From positions 1-64,000 of the forward strand of contig JADZED010000053.1 in assembly GCA_020850715.1 (NCBI GenBank): a stretch of 64,000 nt of DNA. Direction: 5' to 3'. This document shows positions 43,744 to 52,204 of the stretch, piece after piece. Position 1 is the stretch's first letter, and every line of letters begins with the position of its first letter. The DNA comes from Acidobacteriota bacterium. GTDB taxonomy: Bacteria; Acidobacteriota; Vicinamibacteria; Vicinamibacterales; CAVVIG01. A program made the position numbers and the translations under genes. The notes below the pieces were generated by a model. It worked only from the letters and a program-made list of their open reading frames with translations. It made no database searches and had not been told where the DNA came from.

Positions 43744-44718
43744 TCACTCGATCGGGATCGGATGCGGGGCAGCGACCTCCAGCCGCCCGGCGTCGTGGAG
43801 GCCGCGAGCGCGGGCGAAGTCCGCGTGGCGGGCTTCGTACAGGTCCCGGCACTGCAGGCACAATCCGTGCTCGGCGCGCCAGCCGGGGTGGTTGGCCCGA
43901 ACCAGCGCCTCCACCGGTGCCGTCAGCCCGGCGGCCGAGTCGAACGGCGCTCCCGTCGGCAGCCTGCAGACAGGACACCGGCCGGCATCGACCGGGCGTC
44001 CGCCCGGATTGCCCGCCACGGCCAGGATGCGCCCGTGCGTGGGCTGCACACGGTCGAACCAGTCGTCGAACACTTCGGGAAGGCGGTCCCCGAGCATCCT
44101 GAACGTCGCCGCGAACTCGAACGCGCGCACGGCGCGCTTCGCGCCGATATCCCGGCCGGCGCGCGCGAGTCGGCCGTCGATGGAGACGTCCCACAGGACC
44201 CGATACCGATCGCGCACGATATTGCCGGCGACTGGATCGTCTGGCGACGATGGCAGCGTGCGCTGGTAGCCGAAGGCCGGATCCAGCATGTCCGACACGT
44301 GCATCAGCTCGTGCTGGAGCCAGCCTGCGAGCGCCGCGGGATCCAGGAGCGCCGCCGGCATGACCTGCAGCAGCAGCATCGGGCGCCGGTCGGTGTCGGA
44401 ACCCGCCTGGCTGGCGTCGACCAGGTCCGCACCCGCCTCGCGGTTCGAGCGGGCGCGCGCGACCGCGCAGCCGCGGACCCGCTGGAGCACGGCCCCGTGC
44501 GCCTCGATCGTCTGCTCGAGGATCGCGGCAAGGCGCAGACGCCGGAACCACTCCAGGTGCAGCGTCTGAAACCGCACTTCCCGGCGGTCCGGTTCGAGCT
44601 CCCGGTAGATGCGATCGCGCTGGCGCCGGAACGCGCGCGCGTCGGCGGGCGGCAGCCTCCGCTCCGCCAGCAACACCGACTCCTCGACGACATCGGGCGC
44701 CCAGACGATCTCGCTCAT
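43744..44718 (-). CDS. Unknown protein with HELMH metal-site motif and paired CxxC
   Basis: 324 residues, no signal peptide. Residues 136-140 are HELMH (the HExxH zinc motif of many metallopeptidases) within AGWLQHELMHVSDMLDP. The C-terminus has CPVC (248-251) and CLQC (287-290), which would form a zinc ribbon. The N-terminal 120 residues are helical. It ends the molybdoenzyme operon and overlaps the chaperone gene by 4 bp, so a cytosolic role in maturation, quality control or cofactor delivery of that enzyme is likely by context. I do not recognise a named family, and peptidase activity is not established. Confidence 0.8.
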   Translation of the reverse strand: MSEIVWAPDVVEESVLLAERRLPPADARAFRRQRDRIYRELEPDRREVRFQTLHLEWFRRLRLAAILEQTIEAHGAVLQRVRGCAVARARSNREAGADLVDASQAGSDTDRRPMLLLQVMPAALLDPAALAGWLQHELMHVSDMLDPAFGYQRTLPSSPDDPVAGNIVRDRYRVLWDVSIDGRLARAGRDIGAKRAVRAFEFAATFRMLGDRLPEVFDDWFDRVQPTHGRILAVAGNPGGRPVDAGRCPVCRLPTGAPFDSAAGLTAPVEALVRANHPGWRAEHGLCLQCRDLYEARHADFARARGLHDAGRLEVAAPHPIPIE

Positions 44719-45500
44719 CGAACCCGTCTCTGAATCTGGAGCAGCTCGTCGCTCGCGCCGCACGCCATCGGTGTGCGATCGATTGCTTCGGGCCGCAGGG
44801 CGAGATCGACGGGGCCAGACGCGACACCGACCCGGCGGCACTCGCCTTCCACGAACTGGAAGAGGAGCCGGCCCAGCGCCCCGAAGTAGCCGTCCTCGTC
44901 CCCCGCCGTCACTTGGGCCGCGAACGCGCGTCCGAAGCGTCCGACATGGTCGCGCAGGAAGGAACGGGCCGCCAGCTCGGTCGCCTCCAGCGTCTCCTGC
45001 CGTTCCGGCCCCTCGTCTGGACGATCGAGCAGATAGGCCTGCTTGCGGCTCAGGAAGTCCATGAACTCGCACTCGCACGCGATGTGATCGGCTCGCACCT
45101 CGGCGCCCGCCGACGGCCGCAGGCCGAACGCCAGGTAGTAGCCGGCGATGTCGGCGAGCTGCTGGGGCTGATGAAAGCCGTTGTCGGGGCCGTACTCGGT
45201 CTCGCAGGCGCAAATCAGCCCGCGCACCGTGTGGCCGAACAGATGCCAGTACCGCGAACGCGCCACCTCCTCGGAGGGCGCCCGCGCCTTCAACTGCGCG
45301 GCGAGCGGACCGAGCCGCGATCGGCCCTCGAGGCCGTCGAGATGCTCGAGCGCGACGCGGGCGCCGCGGAAACCATCGGCTGCGCCGGCGTCCTTCAGCC
45401 TGGCCAGCGTCGGCGGCTGGAAGGCGATCGACAGGAGCCGATAGACGACTGCGCGTGCGAGCGCCGCATCGACGGCGGCGGCATCGGCGGAGCGTGTCAT
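44715..45500 (-). CDS. TorD/DmsD/NarJ-family chaperone for the molybdoenzyme
   Basis: 261 residues, all-helical. ARAVVYRLLSIAFQPPTLARLKDAG, SRYWHLFGHTVRGLICACETEYGPDNGF, LADIAGYYLAFGL and DHIACECEFMDFLSRKQAYL follow the TorD-family pattern (the E-Y/F-x-P and ADH-x-x-x-E motifs). Such chaperones bind the catalytic subunit until molybdenum cofactor is inserted and before Tat export. The ATG at 45500 is chosen because it removes an Arg/Ser-rich out-of-family leader. It lies 10 bp after the Fe-S subunit gene. Confidence 0.88.
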   Translation of the reverse strand: MTRSADAAAVDAALARAVVYRLLSIAFQPPTLARLKDAGAADGFRGARVALEHLDGLEGRSRLGPLAAQLKARAPSEEVARSRYWHLFGHTVRGLICACETEYGPDNGFHQPQQLADIAGYYLAFGLRPSAGAEVRADHIACECEFMDFLSRKQAYLLDRPDEGPERQETLEATELAARSFLRDHVGRFGRAFAAQVTAGDEDGYFGALGRLLFQFVEGECRRVGVASGPVDLALRPEAIDRTPMACGASDELLQIQRRVR

Positions 45501-45510
45501 GGCGGCCGCC

Positions 45511-46779
45511 TCAGATCGAATTCGCGTGCGCGTTCGTGCGGACGTGGATCGGCTCCTCGATCGTCGTCCGGAAGATTTCGCGGCCCGATCGGCCGAAGGC
45601 AATCACGGTGTCGTTGAACAGCTCGACCTTCCGCCCGCGCAGGGAGCCTTCGTAGACCTTCGGCCCTTCCTGGATCTCGTACCTGTCGATGATGCGGTTC
45701 GACCGCCGGAACAGCTGGAGCACGGCCAGGAGCTCGCGGCTCGGGTTCACGTAGCTGTCGATCGCCTGGTCGACCCCCGGCCCGAACATCTGTCGCAGGT
45801 ACGGCCGCGGCACCCATCGCGGCGGGATGTAATAGCCGTTCGGCTGCGTGCCGAATTGCGGGTAGAGCGGGAGCGCCACCTTCGCGACGTGCACCAGGTA
45901 ATACAACGGGTTCTGCCGGTCCTCGGCCCACGTGCCGTCCGCGGCGATCTGCACGAGGCCCTGCATCCGGATCTGCCCGATGCACGCCGCCATGCACCGG
46001 GTCTCCATCGGCTCGCCGCCGGTCTCGGGATCGGTGCCCTCGACGCGTGGGAAGCAGGCGATGCACTTCTCGCTCGTCCGCGTGTTGCCGCGGTACATGC
46101 TCTTCTTGTAGGGACACGCTTCGACGCACTTCCGGTAACCGCGGCACTCCGCCTGATCGAGCAGGACGATGCCGTCTTCCGGGCGCTTGTAGATGGCCTT
46201 GCGCGGGCAGGCGGCAAGGCAGGCCGGATAGGAGCAGTGATTGCAGATGCGCGCCAGGTAGAAGAACCAGGTCTTGTGCTCGGGCAGCTGCTCGCCGGTC
46301 GGATCGAGCTGATTGCGAACGCCGCGCTTGCCGACCGGATTGTCCTCGTAGATGTTCGGCGCATTCCATTCGTCGTCGGCCGGGAGATAGCCGAGCACGC
46401 GCGCGCTGTCGGGCGTGAGCGTGGTGGCGGCCGCTTCGAAGATGGTCGTGCCCTCGAAGACGCCGTACGGGCCGAAACGGGCATCGGCCGGCGCGCCGCC
46501 CCAGACCTGGCCGGCGGGATTGGCCTCCTCGAGCCTCGCGAGAATTCTGGCATCCCACCACTGCGGATACCCGCCGTAGGGCTTGGTCTCGACATTCGCC
46601 CACCACATGTGCTCCTGGCCCTTGTTGAACGTCCAGGTGGACTTGCACGCCATCGTGCAGCTCTGGCAGGCGATGCACCGGTTGATGTTGAACACGAAGG
46701 CGAACTGCCGGGAGGGGAACCGTGCGTCGTACGGGTAGCTCATCTCGCGGCCAAGCTGCCAGTTCCGTACAGTCGGCAT
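45511..46779 (-). CDS. Four-cluster Fe-S (beta) subunit of type II DMSO-reductase-family enzyme
   Basis: 422 residues starting MPTVRNWQLGREMSYPYDARF after a strong AGGAGGAGCTGATC ribosome site. Four cysteine groups: CIACQSCTMACK (35-45), CNHCSYPACLAACP, CRGYRKCVEACP, and CIACFP...CMAACIGQIRMQG. It relays electrons between the molybdenum subunit and the haem subunit. The opening NWQLGR...YPY and the block KSTWTFNKGQEHMWWANVETKPYGGYPQ recall, from memory, NxrB of Nitrospira-type nitrite oxidoreductases. No own signal peptide is present, so it should be exported with the Tat-bearing catalytic subunit. Two bases separate it from the preceding gene. Confidence 0.93.
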   Translation of the reverse strand: MPTVRNWQLGREMSYPYDARFPSRQFAFVFNINRCIACQSCTMACKSTWTFNKGQEHMWWANVETKPYGGYPQWWDARILARLEEANPAGQVWGGAPADARFGPYGVFEGTTIFEAAATTLTPDSARVLGYLPADDEWNAPNIYEDNPVGKRGVRNQLDPTGEQLPEHKTWFFYLARICNHCSYPACLAACPRKAIYKRPEDGIVLLDQAECRGYRKCVEACPYKKSMYRGNTRTSEKCIACFPRVEGTDPETGGEPMETRCMAACIGQIRMQGLVQIAADGTWAEDRQNPLYYLVHVAKVALPLYPQFGTQPNGYYIPPRWVPRPYLRQMFGPGVDQAIDSYVNPSRELLAVLQLFRRSNRIIDRYEIQEGPKVYEGSLRGRKVELFNDTVIAFGRSGREIFRTTIEEPIHVRTNAHANSI

Positions 46780-46781
46780 GA

Positions 46782-47108
46782 TCAGCTCCTCCTGCGAACC
46801 CACGTCGGCGGGTCCGGCGCCCCGCACGCGGGCGCATCGATGACCACGCGGCGGATCCGGCCCCACACCGCGAGACTCTCGTCGACAACGCGCACGATCT
46901 GGTCCTCGCCGAGCAGCCGCCAGGCGCGGTGCGCGCCGGCGTACTCCGCGCGGCGGTAGAGCGCGAGGATCTGCGCCCGGGTGTAGCCCAGCTGCGCGAA
47001 CTCCTCGGCGAAGGCGGCCGCCATCTCGCGCGTCTGCGCCTCGCTGCCGGGAAGCTCGACGCCGACCAGCTCCTGCGGATCGTCGGATTCGGGATCGGCG
47101 TACGGCAT
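46782..47108 (-). CDS. Small unknown protein between catalytic and Fe-S subunit genes
   Basis: 108 residues, acidic N-terminus and basic C-terminus, no signal peptide, no cysteine motif. A helical middle (SEAQTREMAAAFAEEFAQLGYTRAQILALYRRAEYAGAHRAWRLLGEDQIVRVV) is the only clear feature. Gaps to neighbours are 1 and 2 bp, so it is surely cotranslated with the two main subunits. The pattern (HTH-like helices, YTRAQILALY) could be a protein-binding or assembly factor. No family recognised. Confidence 0.75.
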   Translation of the reverse strand: MPYADPESDDPQELVGVELPGSEAQTREMAAAFAEEFAQLGYTRAQILALYRRAEYAGAHRAWRLLGEDQIVRVVDESLAVWGRIRRVVIDAPACGAPDPPTWVRRRS

Positions 47109-47109
47109 G

Positions 47110-50100
47110 TCACACCCTCAGCGTGGTCAGCTCGCCAGCAAGGTAGCGTTTCATCACGTCGCTCTCGTTGTCGGGGGAGAACCCCTGGGTCGCCGGTCCC
47201 CAGATACCCACCCCGCCCAGCCCGCCGTCTTCGGCCTTCGTGATCCGGATCAGCGTCTCCTTGGGGACGGTGTTGACCGCGTGGTTGTCGGCTTCCCCGC
47301 CGAAGATGAAGCCCATCGTCGCCTTCGCCTTGTGGAACAGCGAGTCGGTCTGGTGCATCGGCATGTGCCAGTTGCGGGTCACCGACTGCTGCGAGCCGTA
47401 GCGCAGGTTCGCCTGATAGCCGGTATTCGCGGAGAGCGCACGCCCGTCGGGCCGCGTCTCGTGCGCCCGCACGCTCTTCTCGGTCGCGATGAAGGGCGCG
47501 TGCTTCATCATCACGATGTTGTACGGGTAGGCGTGGTTGTACTTGACCCGCAGCATGCAGCGCGCCACGCGGTAGAACGGATCGGCCGGCGTGGCGCCGA
47601 TGTAGGGCCGGTCGGCCGGGTTGGCGTCGATATGAACGTAGTCGCCGTCGTTGATGCCGAGGTCGCGGGCCGCCTGCGGGTTGATGTGGAGCTGGTGTTC
47701 GCCGACGCACGGCGACCGCTTGTCCAGACGATACGGATCGCCGAAGTTCGAGTCGTAGAGCATGTGCCAGTCGACGTTGGACCATCCGGAGTGCACCCGG
47801 TGGCGCGTCTTCGGCGTCAGGCAGTAGAACTGGAAGCCCTTTTCCCACAGGAAATTCCTGGTCGACTTGACCGCCGCCCACGGGAGCTTCACGTTGCGCA
47901 CGGTGCGATCGTCCCAATGCTCGGCCTCGCGCGGGATCCCGTAGTCCTGCGGCCTGACGAGCGGATTGGAGCTGACGATGACGTTGGGCAGGTACGGCGT
48001 CGCCTCCGGGCCCTCGCGGTGCACGATGAAGTTCTCGCCGTACTCGATGGCCTCGGGCACGTCCGCGTAGGCGTGCATCCGGCCGGTGTCGGTGTGGAAC
48101 GGCTCGCTGTCGTGCACCTGCTCGTAGAACGGAATGCGCGGATAGGTCCGGAAGTTGAGCAGCGCGCCTCCCGGCGGGCCGAACTTCCCCGCCATCAGAT
48201 CGGGGACCTTGAAGCCGGCGGTGGTCGTCGACGAGTCGAGCAGGCGCTGCAGGTACACGGCGCGCCTGCCTTCGTACTCGAACTTGAACATGTCGACGAA
48301 GCGCTGGTCGCCGGTGAGCTTCGCCATCGCCGCCGCGATCCCCGCGAGGATCGCGAGGTCGTCCTTGCTGTCGAACACCGGCGGGATGCCGCCCTTCCAG
48401 ACCTGGAGGAAGGGGTTCGAGCAGCTCGCGGTCACCTCGAGGTCCTCGAACTCGAGCCAGGAGTTGGCCGGCAGCGCGATGTCGGCATACTCGATCGAGG
48501 CGGTCATCTGGATGTCCATCGAGACGATCATCTCGATGTTCGGATTGACGTTCCTGATCATCTCGTATGCCCACTTGGCGTTGTTGATCAGGTTCACGTT
48601 GGTGAAGATCAAGGCCTTGGTGGGCGTCGGCATGTGCGTCGCGCCGGTGAAGTTCTTGCGGCCCTGCGCCGGCGTGTCCACGATGAGCGCCTTGTCGCCG
48701 TGGTTCCAGTAGGCCGGCTCTTCGTCCTTCGTGTACGCGTGGGCGTGGATGTCCTTGCCCCCCACCGATGCGTCGAGCGTCAGCTGGAAGGGATCTTCGG
48801 CCACCCACCCCTTGAAGCCGGGACCCGTCCACGGCGATCCCTGGAAGATCGCCGCCTTGTAGTTGCCGGCCCACGTATGGCAGCCCGAGCCCGGCAGGCC
48901 GATGTTGCCGGCGAGCATGAGCGGGAGATAGGCCGCCCGGTTCATCTCCGTCGCGTGGAACCAGTGGTTGATGCCCTCGCCCTGGTGAATCGCCGCCGGC
49001 TTGATCGTGCCGAGGTCCTCGGCGAGCTGCTCGATGAGCGATCGGGGCGCCTGCGTGATCTCGGCCACCGAATCGAGATCGTAGTCCTGCAGATGCACCT
49101 GGTAGAGCGTCCACAGCGTCGCGCACTCGACCGTCGTCCCGTCGGCGAGCTTCACCGCGAAGCGTCCGGCCAGCACGGGATCGATGCCCTTGCGCGTCAT
49201 CGTCTCGCCGACGTCGTCGCGCGTGAGCGCCCGCGGCGCGTCCGCTGCCGCGTCCCACACGACGTAGTCGCCGAGCTTCGCGTGCTGCTCGGGCAGCAGC
49301 CCCTGGATCCTCATCGACGGGCCGTCGGGCGACAGCGACGTGGTGTAGCCGGCGAAGACCTCGTGGGCGCGCAGCCGCTTCAGCGTGTCGGTCCTGACGA
49401 GCAGCGGAAAATCGGTGAAGCGCTTGACGAACCCCTCGTCGTAGTGCCGCTTGTCGATCATCAGACGTGTCACGCCGAGAAACAGCGCCGCGTCGGTCTG
49501 CGGCCGGATGGGAATCCAGTAGTCGGCCTTGGTCGACGGCGGCCCGTACTCCGGCGCGATCACGACGATCTTTCCGCCGCGCTCCATCGTCTCGATGAAC
49601 CAGTGCGAGTCGGTCAGCTTGTTCTCGACCAGGTTCTTGCCGTCCATGATGATCAGCTTCGAGTACCGCAGGTCGTTGAAGTCGCAGTCGGAGGCCTGCA
49701 GCCCATGGACCCACGGGTGACCGGGCGCCTGATCGCCGTGCCAGGTGTAGTTCGAGAAATTGCGGCCGCCCTTCGCCTCCCCGGCGGGCACGCTCCGGAT
49801 CTTCGCATCGAGCAGCGCCATCGAATTGTTCAGCCGGTACATCCCGTACTTGCCGAGCACGCCGAGCAGCCCCATGCCGCCGCGCATCTTGAAGGTCCGC
49901 GTGCCGGCGCCGCCCATCTCCCGCACCATCTCGGGCTGGTACCCCTGCGCGAGCAGCCGCTGCGCGCCCTCCTCGCCGCTGTACCGCCGCGCGATGGCAT
50001 CCAGCGCGCCGGCGATGCTCGCGAACGCCTCGTCCCACGACATCTGGATGAATTCGTCGTCGCCGCGGCGGCTGAAGAGATACTTCTCCTTGTTCTCCGG

Positions 50101-50559
50101 CGTCAGTTCCGGGAAGCCCGCCTCCGCCCAGGCCTTCCAGCCCTTGCGCACGATCGGATGGCGCAGCCGGTAGGGCCCGTACAGCACGCGGTGGAAGGTG
50201 TAGCCCTTGGCGCACTGGCGCGGGTTCCAGTTGATGCTGGCGTGGTTGCCGTACAGGTCGGCGTAGGTCTGGTAGTCGTAGGTCTCCCCGCTGCGGACAA
50301 CGATGCCGTTTCGCACGTACGCGCGGATGCGGCAGGCGTGGGTGTCGTTCGGCGAGCATACCCAGTCGAACGACGAGTCGTAGCGGTACTGATCGTGATA
50401 GATCCGCTCCCACTCGCGCGAGACCGTCCGCGCGAGCGGATTGCCGTCGTCGGTCGCGGCCGGCCTCAGGATCGAGCACGCCGCCTCGAGCCCGGCGACC
50501 GACACCGCCGCCCCGGCGCCAAGGTAGTGCAGGAACTCCCGGCGGGCGATCGGAGTCAT
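47110..50559 (-). CDS. Catalytic molybdopterin subunit, type II DMSO reductase family (NXR/NAR-like)
   Basis: 1149 residues. A Tat signal (ARREFLHYLGAGAAVSVAG, 5-23) implies export of the folded enzyme. The N-terminal cluster ligands read Cys68-x3-Asp72-x3-Cys76 with Cys116, where NarG has His-x3-Cys-x3-Cys. Asp276 in YTWHGDQAPGHP is the candidate molybdenum ligand, as in type II enzymes. The C-terminus has FGGEADNHAVNTVPKETLIRI. Length near 1150 is closer to NxrA/NarG than to the roughly 900-residue SerA, DdhA or ClrA. The enzyme could oxidise nitrite, reduce nitrate, chlorate or selenate, or act on another substrate; sequence alone does not decide. One base separates it from both neighbours' codons. 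Confidence 0.92.
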   Translation of the reverse strand: MTPIARREFLHYLGAGAAVSVAGLEAACSILRPAATDDGNPLARTVSREWERIYHDQYRYDSSFDWVCSPNDTHACRIRAYVRNGIVVRSGETYDYQTYADLYGNHASINWNPRQCAKGYTFHRVLYGPYRLRHPIVRKGWKAWAEAGFPELTPENKEKYLFSRRGDDEFIQMSWDEAFASIAGALDAIARRYSGEEGAQRLLAQGYQPEMVREMGGAGTRTFKMRGGMGLLGVLGKYGMYRLNNSMALLDAKIRSVPAGEAKGGRNFSNYTWHGDQAPGHPWVHGLQASDCDFNDLRYSKLIIMDGKNLVENKLTDSHWFIETMERGGKIVVIAPEYGPPSTKADYWIPIRPQTDAALFLGVTRLMIDKRHYDEGFVKRFTDFPLLVRTDTLKRLRAHEVFAGYTTSLSPDGPSMRIQGLLPEQHAKLGDYVVWDAAADAPRALTRDDVGETMTRKGIDPVLAGRFAVKLADGTTVECATLWTLYQVHLQDYDLDSVAEITQAPRSLIEQLAEDLGTIKPAAIHQGEGINHWFHATEMNRAAYLPLMLAGNIGLPGSGCHTWAGNYKAAIFQGSPWTGPGFKGWVAEDPFQLTLDASVGGKDIHAHAYTKDEEPAYWNHGDKALIVDTPAQGRKNFTGATHMPTPTKALIFTNVNLINNAKWAYEMIRNVNPNIEMIVSMDIQMTASIEYADIALPANSWLEFEDLEVTASCSNPFLQVWKGGIPPVFDSKDDLAILAGIAAAMAKLTGDQRFVDMFKFEYEGRRAVYLQRLLDSSTTTAGFKVPDLMAGKFGPPGGALLNFRTYPRIPFYEQVHDSEPFHTDTGRMHAYADVPEAIEYGENFIVHREGPEATPYLPNVIVSSNPLVRPQDYGIPREAEHWDDRTVRNVKLPWAAVKSTRNFLWEKGFQFYCLTPKTRHRVHSGWSNVDWHMLYDSNFGDPYRLDKRSPCVGEHQLHINPQAARDLGINDGDYVHIDANPADRPYIGATPADPFYRVARCMLRVKYNHAYPYNIVMMKHAPFIATEKSVRAHETRPDGRALSANTGYQANLRYGSQQSVTRNWHMPMHQTDSLFHKAKATMGFIFGGEADNHAVNTVPKETLIRITKAEDGGLGGVGIWGPATQGFSPDNESDVMKRYLAGELTTLRV

Positions 50560-50560
50560 G

Positions 50561-52204
50561 TCATTTCTCCAGGAACAGTTCCTGCCAGATGGTCACCGAC
50601 TTCTTGCCGTCCCGGTCGCCGGCACTCCCGTTCCACACCGCGAACGCGACCGGAATGCGTCCGCCCGGCGCGATCTGCATCGACGTGCCGCCGCCCGATC
50701 CGGCCAGGGCGCGCGTGAACTGCACCTGGTACGAGCCGGTCCCGTACACGCCGGCGGCCCGGACCGCCTGATCCCGCGTCGGGTGCGCTTTCAGCGTGCC
50801 GAACCCCTGCGCCGTGAGATCCTCGGCGGCGCTGTGGCGCGTCGGATCGGCGACAATATTGCCGGCGCCCCATGCCGTGACGAACGTCGGGTCCGATTGG
50901 AGCGTGAGCGCGTTGCGCGTCGGCTGCTCGAGCGGCGACCTGGTGAGGTTCGGGTACGAATCGATGCCGATGTTCGGGTAGACCTTCTCCAGATCCTGGA
51001 ACACCGGCTCCAGATCGGCCTGCCGCTCCGACTTCCACATCCAGATGTTGACGGGTGCTCCAGGCTGGCCCATCGCGAAGAACGGCGGATCCGCCGCCAG
51101 CGCGAACTCGACGGCGGCGGCGTCACGGAAGTCCTGCGGCCGGATCGCCGTCTCGTCGTTCGAGCCGTCTTCCCATTTCAGGTTCAGCGCGAGGGTCCTG
51201 CCGTCGTGCAGCGCTCGAACGGTGATCTCCTCCGGCCGATCGGTGCGCCACCAGAGCGGCATCATGTGAAGGTTGACCGGCGGCGCGGTCCGCCACACGC
51301 CGGAGTCCGGACTGGCCGGCAGCGCGGCGACGCGGCGCGCGACGATCCGGAACTTCTTCATCTCCGCCTTCTCGCGCTGCGCGTCGCTCGACAGAGCGCG
51401 GACCAGCGAGACCAGCGCCCATCCGTCGTTCCCGTGCAGATACCCGTTCTGCGGCATCGGCGATCCCGGCAGCCCTCCGACGATCCGCCGATAGATCTCG
51501 GGCGCCTCCGGGCTGCCCTTGAAGACGCCGAGCGTGAGATCGCGCGGCCGCGTCGGATAGCCCTTCGAGTCCACCTGCTTCTGGGCGCCGTCGCCGCGGG
51601 CCGTCGCGCCGTGGCAGGGCGCGCAGCCCTTGGCGAACAGTTCGCGGGCCCGCACCTGCGCCGCGTCGTCGTACGCCGGCGCGGGCGGGATCGAGATCAG
51701 CCCCGCGCCGCCGCTGCCGTAGACGTCAGGTTCACGGTTCGCCTTCAGGACCAGGGGCCTCGTCGAGAACGCCTTCACGTAGTGCACCAGGCCCCAGCGC
51801 GCCTCCTCGGGCAGGTGCGCCCACGGCGGCATCGCCGAGCCGGGCATGCCGCGCGAGATCGTGCGGAAGAGATCCTCGTCGGTGGGCACGCCGTCCCACG
51901 TCGACACGATGCGGAACTGGCCGGTCGTGAAGTCGCGCGGCCGCGGGTACAGGAGGTAGGCCGCGTCACCCGCCCCGTCGCCGGCAACGCCGTGGCAGGC
52001 CACGCACTCCTTCTCGAACGTCGCCTTCCCCAGCGCGAGGAGCTCGGGCGTGGCCGGCCGCTGACTGGCGGGCGTGATGGCGAAGGGAATCAGGCCGGGC
52101 ACGGTCGTGGTGTCCGTCTCGGCTCCACGGGATCCACAACCGGCCACGAAGAAGAACGCGACACCAAGACACCAGGCCCGCCGCCGCATTGCTCGACTGC
52201 CCAT
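50561..52204 (-). CDS. Lipoprotein fusing two cytochrome c domains to an EB_dh-type haem subunit
   Basis: 547 residues from the ATG at 52204, which has GGAGG five bases upstream. Lipobox FVAGC (Cys23). Two c-type haem sites: CVACH (67-71) and CAPCH (194-198), each with a later Met ligand candidate (MPGSAMPPWAH; GLPGSPMPQNG). From about residue 290 to the end it matches the ethylbenzene dehydrogenase gamma/NxrC-like haem-b domain (VRALHDGRTLALNLKWEDGSNDE, FALAADPPFFAMGQPGAPVNIWMWKSE, VAFAVWNGSAGDRDGKKSVTIWQELFLE). It should carry electrons between the molybdoenzyme and the respiratory chain on the outer face of a membrane. First gene of the operon. Confidence 0.92.
   Translation of the reverse strand: MGSRAMRRRAWCLGVAFFFVAGCGSRGAETDTTTVPGLIPFAITPASQRPATPELLALGKATFEKECVACHGVAGDGAGDAAYLLYPRPRDFTTGQFRIVSTWDGVPTDEDLFRTISRGMPGSAMPPWAHLPEEARWGLVHYVKAFSTRPLVLKANREPDVYGSGGAGLISIPPAPAYDDAAQVRARELFAKGCAPCHGATARGDGAQKQVDSKGYPTRPRDLTLGVFKGSPEAPEIYRRIVGGLPGSPMPQNGYLHGNDGWALVSLVRALSSDAQREKAEMKKFRIVARRVAALPASPDSGVWRTAPPVNLHMMPLWWRTDRPEEITVRALHDGRTLALNLKWEDGSNDETAIRPQDFRDAAAVEFALAADPPFFAMGQPGAPVNIWMWKSERQADLEPVFQDLEKVYPNIGIDSYPNLTRSPLEQPTRNALTLQSDPTFVTAWGAGNIVADPTRHSAAEDLTAQGFGTLKAHPTRDQAVRAAGVYGTGSYQVQFTRALAGSGGGTSMQIAPGGRIPVAFAVWNGSAGDRDGKKSVTIWQELFLEK

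Follow-up and report, generated by a model that had tools for sequence, protein, structure and literature searches.

A conserved Cys4-ribbon protein with a variable HExxH site in NXR gene cassettes, a candidate factor in enzyme assembly

The HELMH gene and its NXR-type cassette

We analyzed a 64,000-nucleotide stretch of Acidobacteriota DNA, referred to here as the window, which carries minus-strand genes in the order gamma, alpha, small108, beta, TorD and HELMH (Table 1). The coding sequence of the HELMH protein runs from an ATG at 44718-44716 to a TGA at 43746-43744, and four bases (ATGA) are shared between its start and the end of the TorD-like gene. Besides HELMH at residues 136-140, the protein contains the cysteine pairs CPVC (248-251) and CLQC (287-290). 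It has no apparent signal peptide. The initial annotation of this locus had the coordinates, the motif positions and the TorD overlap right; we add the minus-strand orientation. The gene is single-copy in its own genome, and a search of plasmid records for the HELMH protein returned none. That the reading frame is real, beyond chance, is clear from relatives of 25-54% identity in many genomes and from the invariance of E137 and the four cysteines in 127 homologues.

Table 1. Features of the cassette, domains of the HELMH protein, and ribbon proteins from anammox loci
Feature	Position	Strand	Remarks
HELMH protein CDS	43744..44718	minus	324 aa; kustd1701 orthologue, accessory to NXR
C-terminal Cys4 zinc-ribbon-like domain	43834..43986	minus	residues 245-295 (CPVC ... 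CLQC); invariant
Core domain	43999..44487	minus	residues 78-240; three strands, then helices (AF2 models)
HELMH motif	44299..44313	minus	residues 136-140; E invariant, His repeatedly lost
TorD/NarJ-like chaperone	44715..45500	minus	PF02613; TIGR03482 below cut-off; predicted start ATG 45500
NXR-B-like iron-sulfur subunit	45511..46779	minus	64% identical to Kuenenia NXR-B; predicted start
small108	46782..47108	minus	108 aa, between alpha and beta; without family model
NXR-A-like catalytic subunit	47110..50559	minus	63% identical to Kuenenia NXR-A; twin-arginine start RREFLH
Gamma subunit	50561..52189	minus	two cytochrome c domains and EBDH/NxrC heme b domain, fused; predicted start
Anammox Cys4-ribbon proteins	L259:4141-4770, L262:8050-8661, L263:11113-11721

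We identified the enzyme of this cassette from its subunits. The window alpha subunit matched NXR-A of the Kuenenia stuttgartiensis nitrite oxidoreductase (NXR; PDB 7b04) with 1751 bits over positions 4-1145 and 62.7% identity. Its matches to perchlorate reductase (194 bits; we take PDB entry 4ydd to be this enzyme), ethylbenzene dehydrogenase (154 bits) and NarG (113-120 bits) were far weaker. D72 and D276 of the window alpha match Asp71 and Asp275 of Kuenenia NXR-A, which are located at FS0 and serve as the molybdenum ligand, respectively (PMC8387239). With both aspartates and a Tat motif present, the window NXR-A falls among the Kuenenia and Nitrospira enzymes in an alpha tree. The beta subunit matches NXR-B (581 bits), and the C-terminus of gamma matches NXR-C. 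Together, these matches to NXR-A, NXR-B and NXR-C mark the cassette, at the level of sequence, as NXR-type; the enzyme is reversible, and its direction (nitrite versus nitrate) is not readable from sequence. The fused gamma subunit (50561-52189) resembles the "alternative NxrC" of Nitrospira and Nitrospina. small108 is conserved in most non-anammox NXR cassettes and is missing from the sister clade described below.

Distribution of the HELMH family

Scans of Pfam (including 40 relatives), NCBIfam and PHROGs gave no significant match for the HELMH protein and its relatives, and the HELMH profile had no match among PDB sequences. Unlike the product of the neighboring gene, the HELMH protein matched neither PF02613 nor TIGR03482. 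Peptidase M76 (PF09768) had no match to the window protein or to A2 members. Protein and profile searches recovered relatives in Acidobacteriota, in named records from Methylomirabilota, Rokubacteria, Planctomycetota, Verrucomicrobia, Hydrogenedentota, Actinomycetota and many Nitrospira, and in MAGs labelled Deltaproteobacteria, which are Myxococcota in the taxonomy used for tree mapping. Genome samples of Planctomycetota and Nitrospirota provided more. Family members accompany NXR genes in at least eight phyla. A contig scan yielded matches with an alignment-based query and none with the single HELMH protein; the alignment-based pattern demands the second histidine, so the conservation of H140 is inflated in that subset. 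We rejected the subtilases of L040-L043 (C-terminal-only matches) and the short proteins of L271-L279 (core-only matches) as family members, and an apparent deletion in L285 turned out to be masked sequence (N) and no real loss.

The HELMH gene is closely linked to NXR genes. Among 137 distinct copies with usable flanks, 128 have a gene for NXR alpha, beta or gamma or for TorD within 6 kb. These comprise 87 copies with alpha or beta plus TorD, 37 with TorD with or without gamma (mostly Nitrospira), two with alpha or beta but not TorD, and two with gamma only. The other nine have no cassette genes in this interval, and for six of them a contig end is no more than 1.5 kb away. Of the remaining three, L080 comes from a genome with NXR-A elsewhere, L280 is the additional copy of a genome whose other copy lies in a cassette, and for L096 we did not find NXR-A. 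Neighbors were co-directional throughout for 124 of 126 copies with close neighbors. The window protein combines homology over its full length (core and Cys4 ribbon) with adjacency to NXR subunit and TorD genes. At one locus (L038:5179-17253), a HELMH gene with lost histidines (REFLR) lies between two NXR-A genes in tandem.

We then tallied co-occurrence by hand in paired genome samples from three phyla. The HELMH protein is encoded in 101 of 107 genomes with an NXR-type alpha, and in the six others the alphas are fragmentary, partial or truncated. Among Acidobacteriota with an alpha of at least 55% identity, 18 of 20 genomes have the gene; the alpha is fragmentary in one exception (G373) and truncated in the other (G421). 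For Planctomycetota with an alpha of at least 58% the count is 53 of 57, the other four having partial alphas only, and for Nitrospirota it is 30 of 30. Genomes that have only alphas of the sister clade (40-45% identity) gave a very different result: 1 of 57 encodes the HELMH protein (Acidobacteriota 1/31, Planctomycetota 0/18, Nitrospirota 0/8). The single exception (G331) has a TorD fragment beside the HELMH gene, in a genome that is 75% complete. The sister cassettes (L198-L203) have neither HELMH nor small108, although alpha, beta, gamma and in most cases TorD are there. Their alphas are common in Acidobacteriota and share the motif CxPNDTHxC. We considered that the HELMH factor might serve the Asp-coordinated FS0 cluster, and dropped this idea, since the motif is equally present in the sister clade, where the gene is missing.

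In the alpha tree (52 sequences, a quick method with SH-aLRT support only), the HELMH gene marks the clade that unites the enzymes of Nitrospira, anammox bacteria and the window, within which one nested subclade has lost it. The gene is missing from the most basal group, but core-only paralogues are present in those genomes. Full-length HELMH protein was found in none of the 12 Planctomycetota genomes with a 53-57% alpha, five of which encode a core-only paralogue. A universal need for the protein is excluded, because this NXR subclade does without the full-length form in all 12 genomes. One Planctomycetota subclade of NXR-type alphas (L327-L335), with alpha/beta/TorD/gamma cassettes lacking HELMH, offers a natural test of need. 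The initial annotation proposed to test whether homologues always adjoin genes of type II molybdoenzymes. Linkage to NXR and TorD genes held up in 128 of 137 copies, and the extension to type II enzymes in general did not, given the sister clade (1/57); wide occurrence without molybdoenzymes, which had been named as counter-evidence, was not observed. As judged from these distributions, the HELMH protein is specific to the NXR clade and does not belong to type II molybdoenzymes in general.

Counterparts in Kuenenia and Nitrospira

We compared the window cassette to published NXR clusters. A Kuenenia genome (L258) was recognized by its NXR-A, identical to 7b04 throughout the printed alignment. 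Its genes run cupredoxin-like, NXR-A, HELMH protein, TorD, NXR-B and NXR-C, followed by monoheme NXR-T, UspA-like, monoheme, tetraheme and diheme proteins. This order agrees with that given for kustd1699-1709 (PMC6423088). By position and sequence (29% identity over the whole length), the Kuenenia orthologue of the HELMH protein is kustd1701, and TorD is kustd1702. The former is annotated as an "unknown protein" of the nxr cluster (PMC6423088). The initial annotation knew of no such component in Nxr systems; the protein is not absent from them, since its homologue had already appeared, without a known role, in published NXR clusters. The Nitrospira moscoviensis copy (L129) is likewise an orthologue by position and sequence, with 32% identity over the whole length. 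It is followed by a NapG-like ferredoxin gene, TorD (NITMOv2_3625) and nxrC_2 (NITMOv2_3624; PMC6606698). In Nitrospira, then, the ferredoxin gene separates HELMH from TorD and nxrAB lies elsewhere, whereas in the window HELMH directly follows TorD.

The gene set common to Kuenenia, Nitrospira and Nitrospina NXR was reported to include "one putative zinc finger" protein, without a proposed function (PMC3578206). This protein, drawn from the same gene set, probably belongs to the HELMH family. We found no function, family model or distribution analysis for the HELMH protein in the openly accessible literature that we searched. The kind of protein (a dedicated accessory protein of a redox enzyme) and the gene, as an unnamed member of NXR clusters, are known; the family itself is unrelated to TorD/NarJ.

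Constant linkage with subunit genes might indicate that the HELMH protein is itself a stoichiometric or peripheral NXR subunit, or a cytosolic electron-transfer partner. However, the only subunits in the Kuenenia NXR crystal are A, B and C, with T added in tubules (PMC8387239). kustd1701 and the TorD gene kustd1702 are transcribed, yet both proteins went undetected in a proteome in which NxrA, NxrB, kustd1704 and kustd1705 were detected and NxrA/B/C were abundant (PMC6423088). Non-detection in one proteome is weak evidence. The protein also lacks an export signal, whereas NXR-A has a Tat motif, and it contains no redox cofactor motif apart from Cys4. We regard a subunit or electron-transfer role as improbable to a high degree.

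Conserved scaffold, variable HExxH site and proposed role

We examined the predicted structure of the HELMH protein. AlphaFold2 models reached a mean pLDDT of 88 over the whole protein; the core by itself (residues 78-240) reached 93. An N-terminal helical part is followed by three strands, the HExxH helix (127-145), a second long helix (162-186) that bears D181, more helices and the C-terminal Cys4 segment. Foldseek searches of the PDB gave nothing significant: the best match of the full model was a putative metallopeptidase (E 0.42), and that of the core was a non-peptidase (E 2.5). The core shares homology with free-standing Planctomycetota proteins some 200 residues long (hhalign probability 99.3, E 2.8e-20). 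These core-only HELMHVADQL paralogues (L271-L279), found in anammox genomes among others, have no NXR genes nearby.

Conservation differs between the two putative metal sites. E137, W176, C248 and C251 are invariant in 127 unique homologues, as are C287 and C290 in the 126 sequences that extend to these positions. D143 is retained in 126/127 and R171 and R183 in 125/127. H140 is present in 121/127 (95%), H136 in 113/127 (89%) and D181 in 116/127; "strictly conserved" is therefore too strong a term for the HExxH motif. Of 80 distinct members, sharing less than 85% identity, 16 have a broken HxxxH. The tree requires 11 changes, of which at least seven are forced by well-supported branches, and one broken motif occurs within the window's own family (L050, NELTH). 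Genes with broken histidines remain under purifying selection, as intact pairs do; the His-lost pair L100/L103 has a dN of 0.127 and a dS of 0.295 by NG86 and 0.105 and 0.823 by YN00.

These data bear on whether the protein is a zincin metallopeptidase with a trimming or quality-control role toward an NXR subunit, in which H136, H140 and D181 would be the ligands and E137 the catalytic base. HExxH is intact in 111 of 127 unique homologues with E137 invariant, and the D181 position is D or E in 121/127. D181 is lost more often where HxxxH is lost (3/16 versus 3/111; Fisher p 0.03, without phylogenetic correction), which makes D181 a candidate third ligand. H228 was dropped from consideration for this place, as short paralogues with intact HExxH do not keep it. 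The order of the core in the AF2 model (three strands, HExxH helix, helix) is compatible with a zincin fold, and one short core-only paralogue has a sub-threshold match to peptidase M76 (Atp23; E 4.9e-4). A search for M76 relatives gave no match in either the own or the control genomes and is uninformative. Against a peptidase stand the broken motifs under continued selection and the lack of a significant PDB relative. The window protein itself has HExxH and a candidate third ligand, but the family as a whole has lost H136 or H140 at least seven times. A required metallopeptidase is unlikely, and even the broader zincin explanation seems to us to have a small chance of being correct.

The same losses count against a metal carrier, the other role for the histidines named in the initial annotation, where their conservation was to be checked. 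The two possible metal sites could suit a protein that delivers zinc or molybdenum to NXR or its chaperone. However, the His site is not conserved, and the invariant, ribbon-like Cys4 site suggests structural zinc. No zinc is known from the NXR structure. Metal delivery is accordingly the reading to which we give the least credence. The invariant cysteines favor the remaining option of the initial annotation, a structural zinc protein, and from the sequence pattern a zinc ribbon. The HELMH protein is probably zinc-binding, with the metal presumably held at the Cys4 site, and the HExxH/D181 site may bind metal in most members and yet be dispensable. Repeated His loss under purifying selection implies a conserved function that is independent of the classical HExxH site and that, on these alignments, depends on the scaffold and the Cys4 ribbon.

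The Cys4 ribbon also occurs in other proteins. In Acidobacteriota, subtilisin-like proteases (L040:9921-11294, L041, L042, L043) carry the same pattern (CPxC ... W ... GxCxxC) at their N-terminus, without NXR nearby. A DUF1003-like membrane protein has it too (L288, L289), and L286 has tandem copies. An invariant ribbon that is reused in subtilases and membrane proteins might bind DNA or sense redox state, and the HELMH protein could then be a regulator of nxr expression or a metal, redox or NO sensor. However, no DNA-binding family in Pfam or NCBIfam matched it, and its gene, which in the window is coupled to TorD, lies within the operon and is missing from sister cassettes. Known Nitrospira nxr regulators are of sigma-54/NifA types (PMC6606698). 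We consider a regulatory or sensory function a poor prospect.

We favor, by a little over even chances, an assembly (maturation) factor that is cytosolic and specific to NXR, and that handles NXR-A/NXR-B jointly with the TorD-like chaperone before they are exported via Tat. Maturation is the role that best suits an accessory gene of one molybdoenzyme type that adjoins TorD or NXR genes. Four further observations support it: TorD coupling in the window, absence from the crystal, non-detection in the proteome, and fast evolution, like that of TorD (45-54% identity where alphas are 86-87% identical; L048, L052). We counted against it that the Nitrospira gene is apart from nxrAB, with nxrC_2, that one NXR subclade lacks the full-length protein, and that the Asp-coordinated FS0 site, for which a special factor could have been required, is shared by the sister clade without a HELMH gene. 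The accessory part of the maturation role proposed in the initial annotation is borne out, as the gene adjoins TorD or NXR genes in nearly every case that the contig allows; action in assembly, and contact with NXR-A or NXR-B, are what we infer.

In the proposed mechanism, the HELMH factor and TorD would act on NXR-A/NXR-B in the cytosol, and the folded pair would then be exported via Tat. Co-export of NXR-B with twin-arginine NXR-A is a published proposal (PMC3578206). The work would be done by a two-domain scaffold of Cys4 zinc ribbon and helical core, the latter through the invariant or nearly invariant residues E137, D143, R171, W176 and R183. Because the HExxH/D181 site is dispensable, action would be by binding and not by obligatory proteolysis. 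TorD/NarJ maturation proteins (PF02613, TIGR03482) are likewise products of dedicated cytosolic accessory genes for enzymes of the type II DMSO reductase family; the HELMH protein is unrelated to them in sequence, has a Cys4 ribbon and HExxH, and occurs besides TorD. Peptidase M76/Atp23, a processing peptidase and chaperone for ATP synthase, also has HExxHxxD and stands for a similar idea, an assembly factor that resembles a peptidase, but the window protein does not match it and HExxH is often lost in the HELMH family. A peptidase-like chaperone in the manner of mitochondrial Atp23 is offered as an analogy only.

Nearly all biological nitrate is made by NXR, which oxidizes nitrite to nitrate. 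The HELMH protein is probably required for building this enzyme. Anammox metalloproteins like NXR cannot be expressed heterologously (PMC8387239), and a dedicated assembly factor, if confirmed, would be a concrete missing part for NXR production in foreign hosts. It would be conserved from Nitrospira via anammox bacteria to uncultured Acidobacteriota, Methylomirabilota and Myxococcota, and its gene would be a sequence marker that parts NXR-type enzymes from their nearest relatives. We also put forward a fuller account tentatively, at somewhat less than even chances. Here the protein would be an NXR-only second maturation factor of undescribed fold, needed by periplasmic NXR, that arose at the base of the NXR clade when a peptidase-like core was joined to a zinc ribbon, the catalytic histidines being lost repeatedly afterwards; lack of this factor could partly explain why NXR has not been produced in foreign hosts.

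One anammox subgroup encodes an apparently exported Cys4-ribbon protein of about 200 residues between NXR-B and TorD (Table 1). Its position hints that the ribbon recognizes an NXR component.
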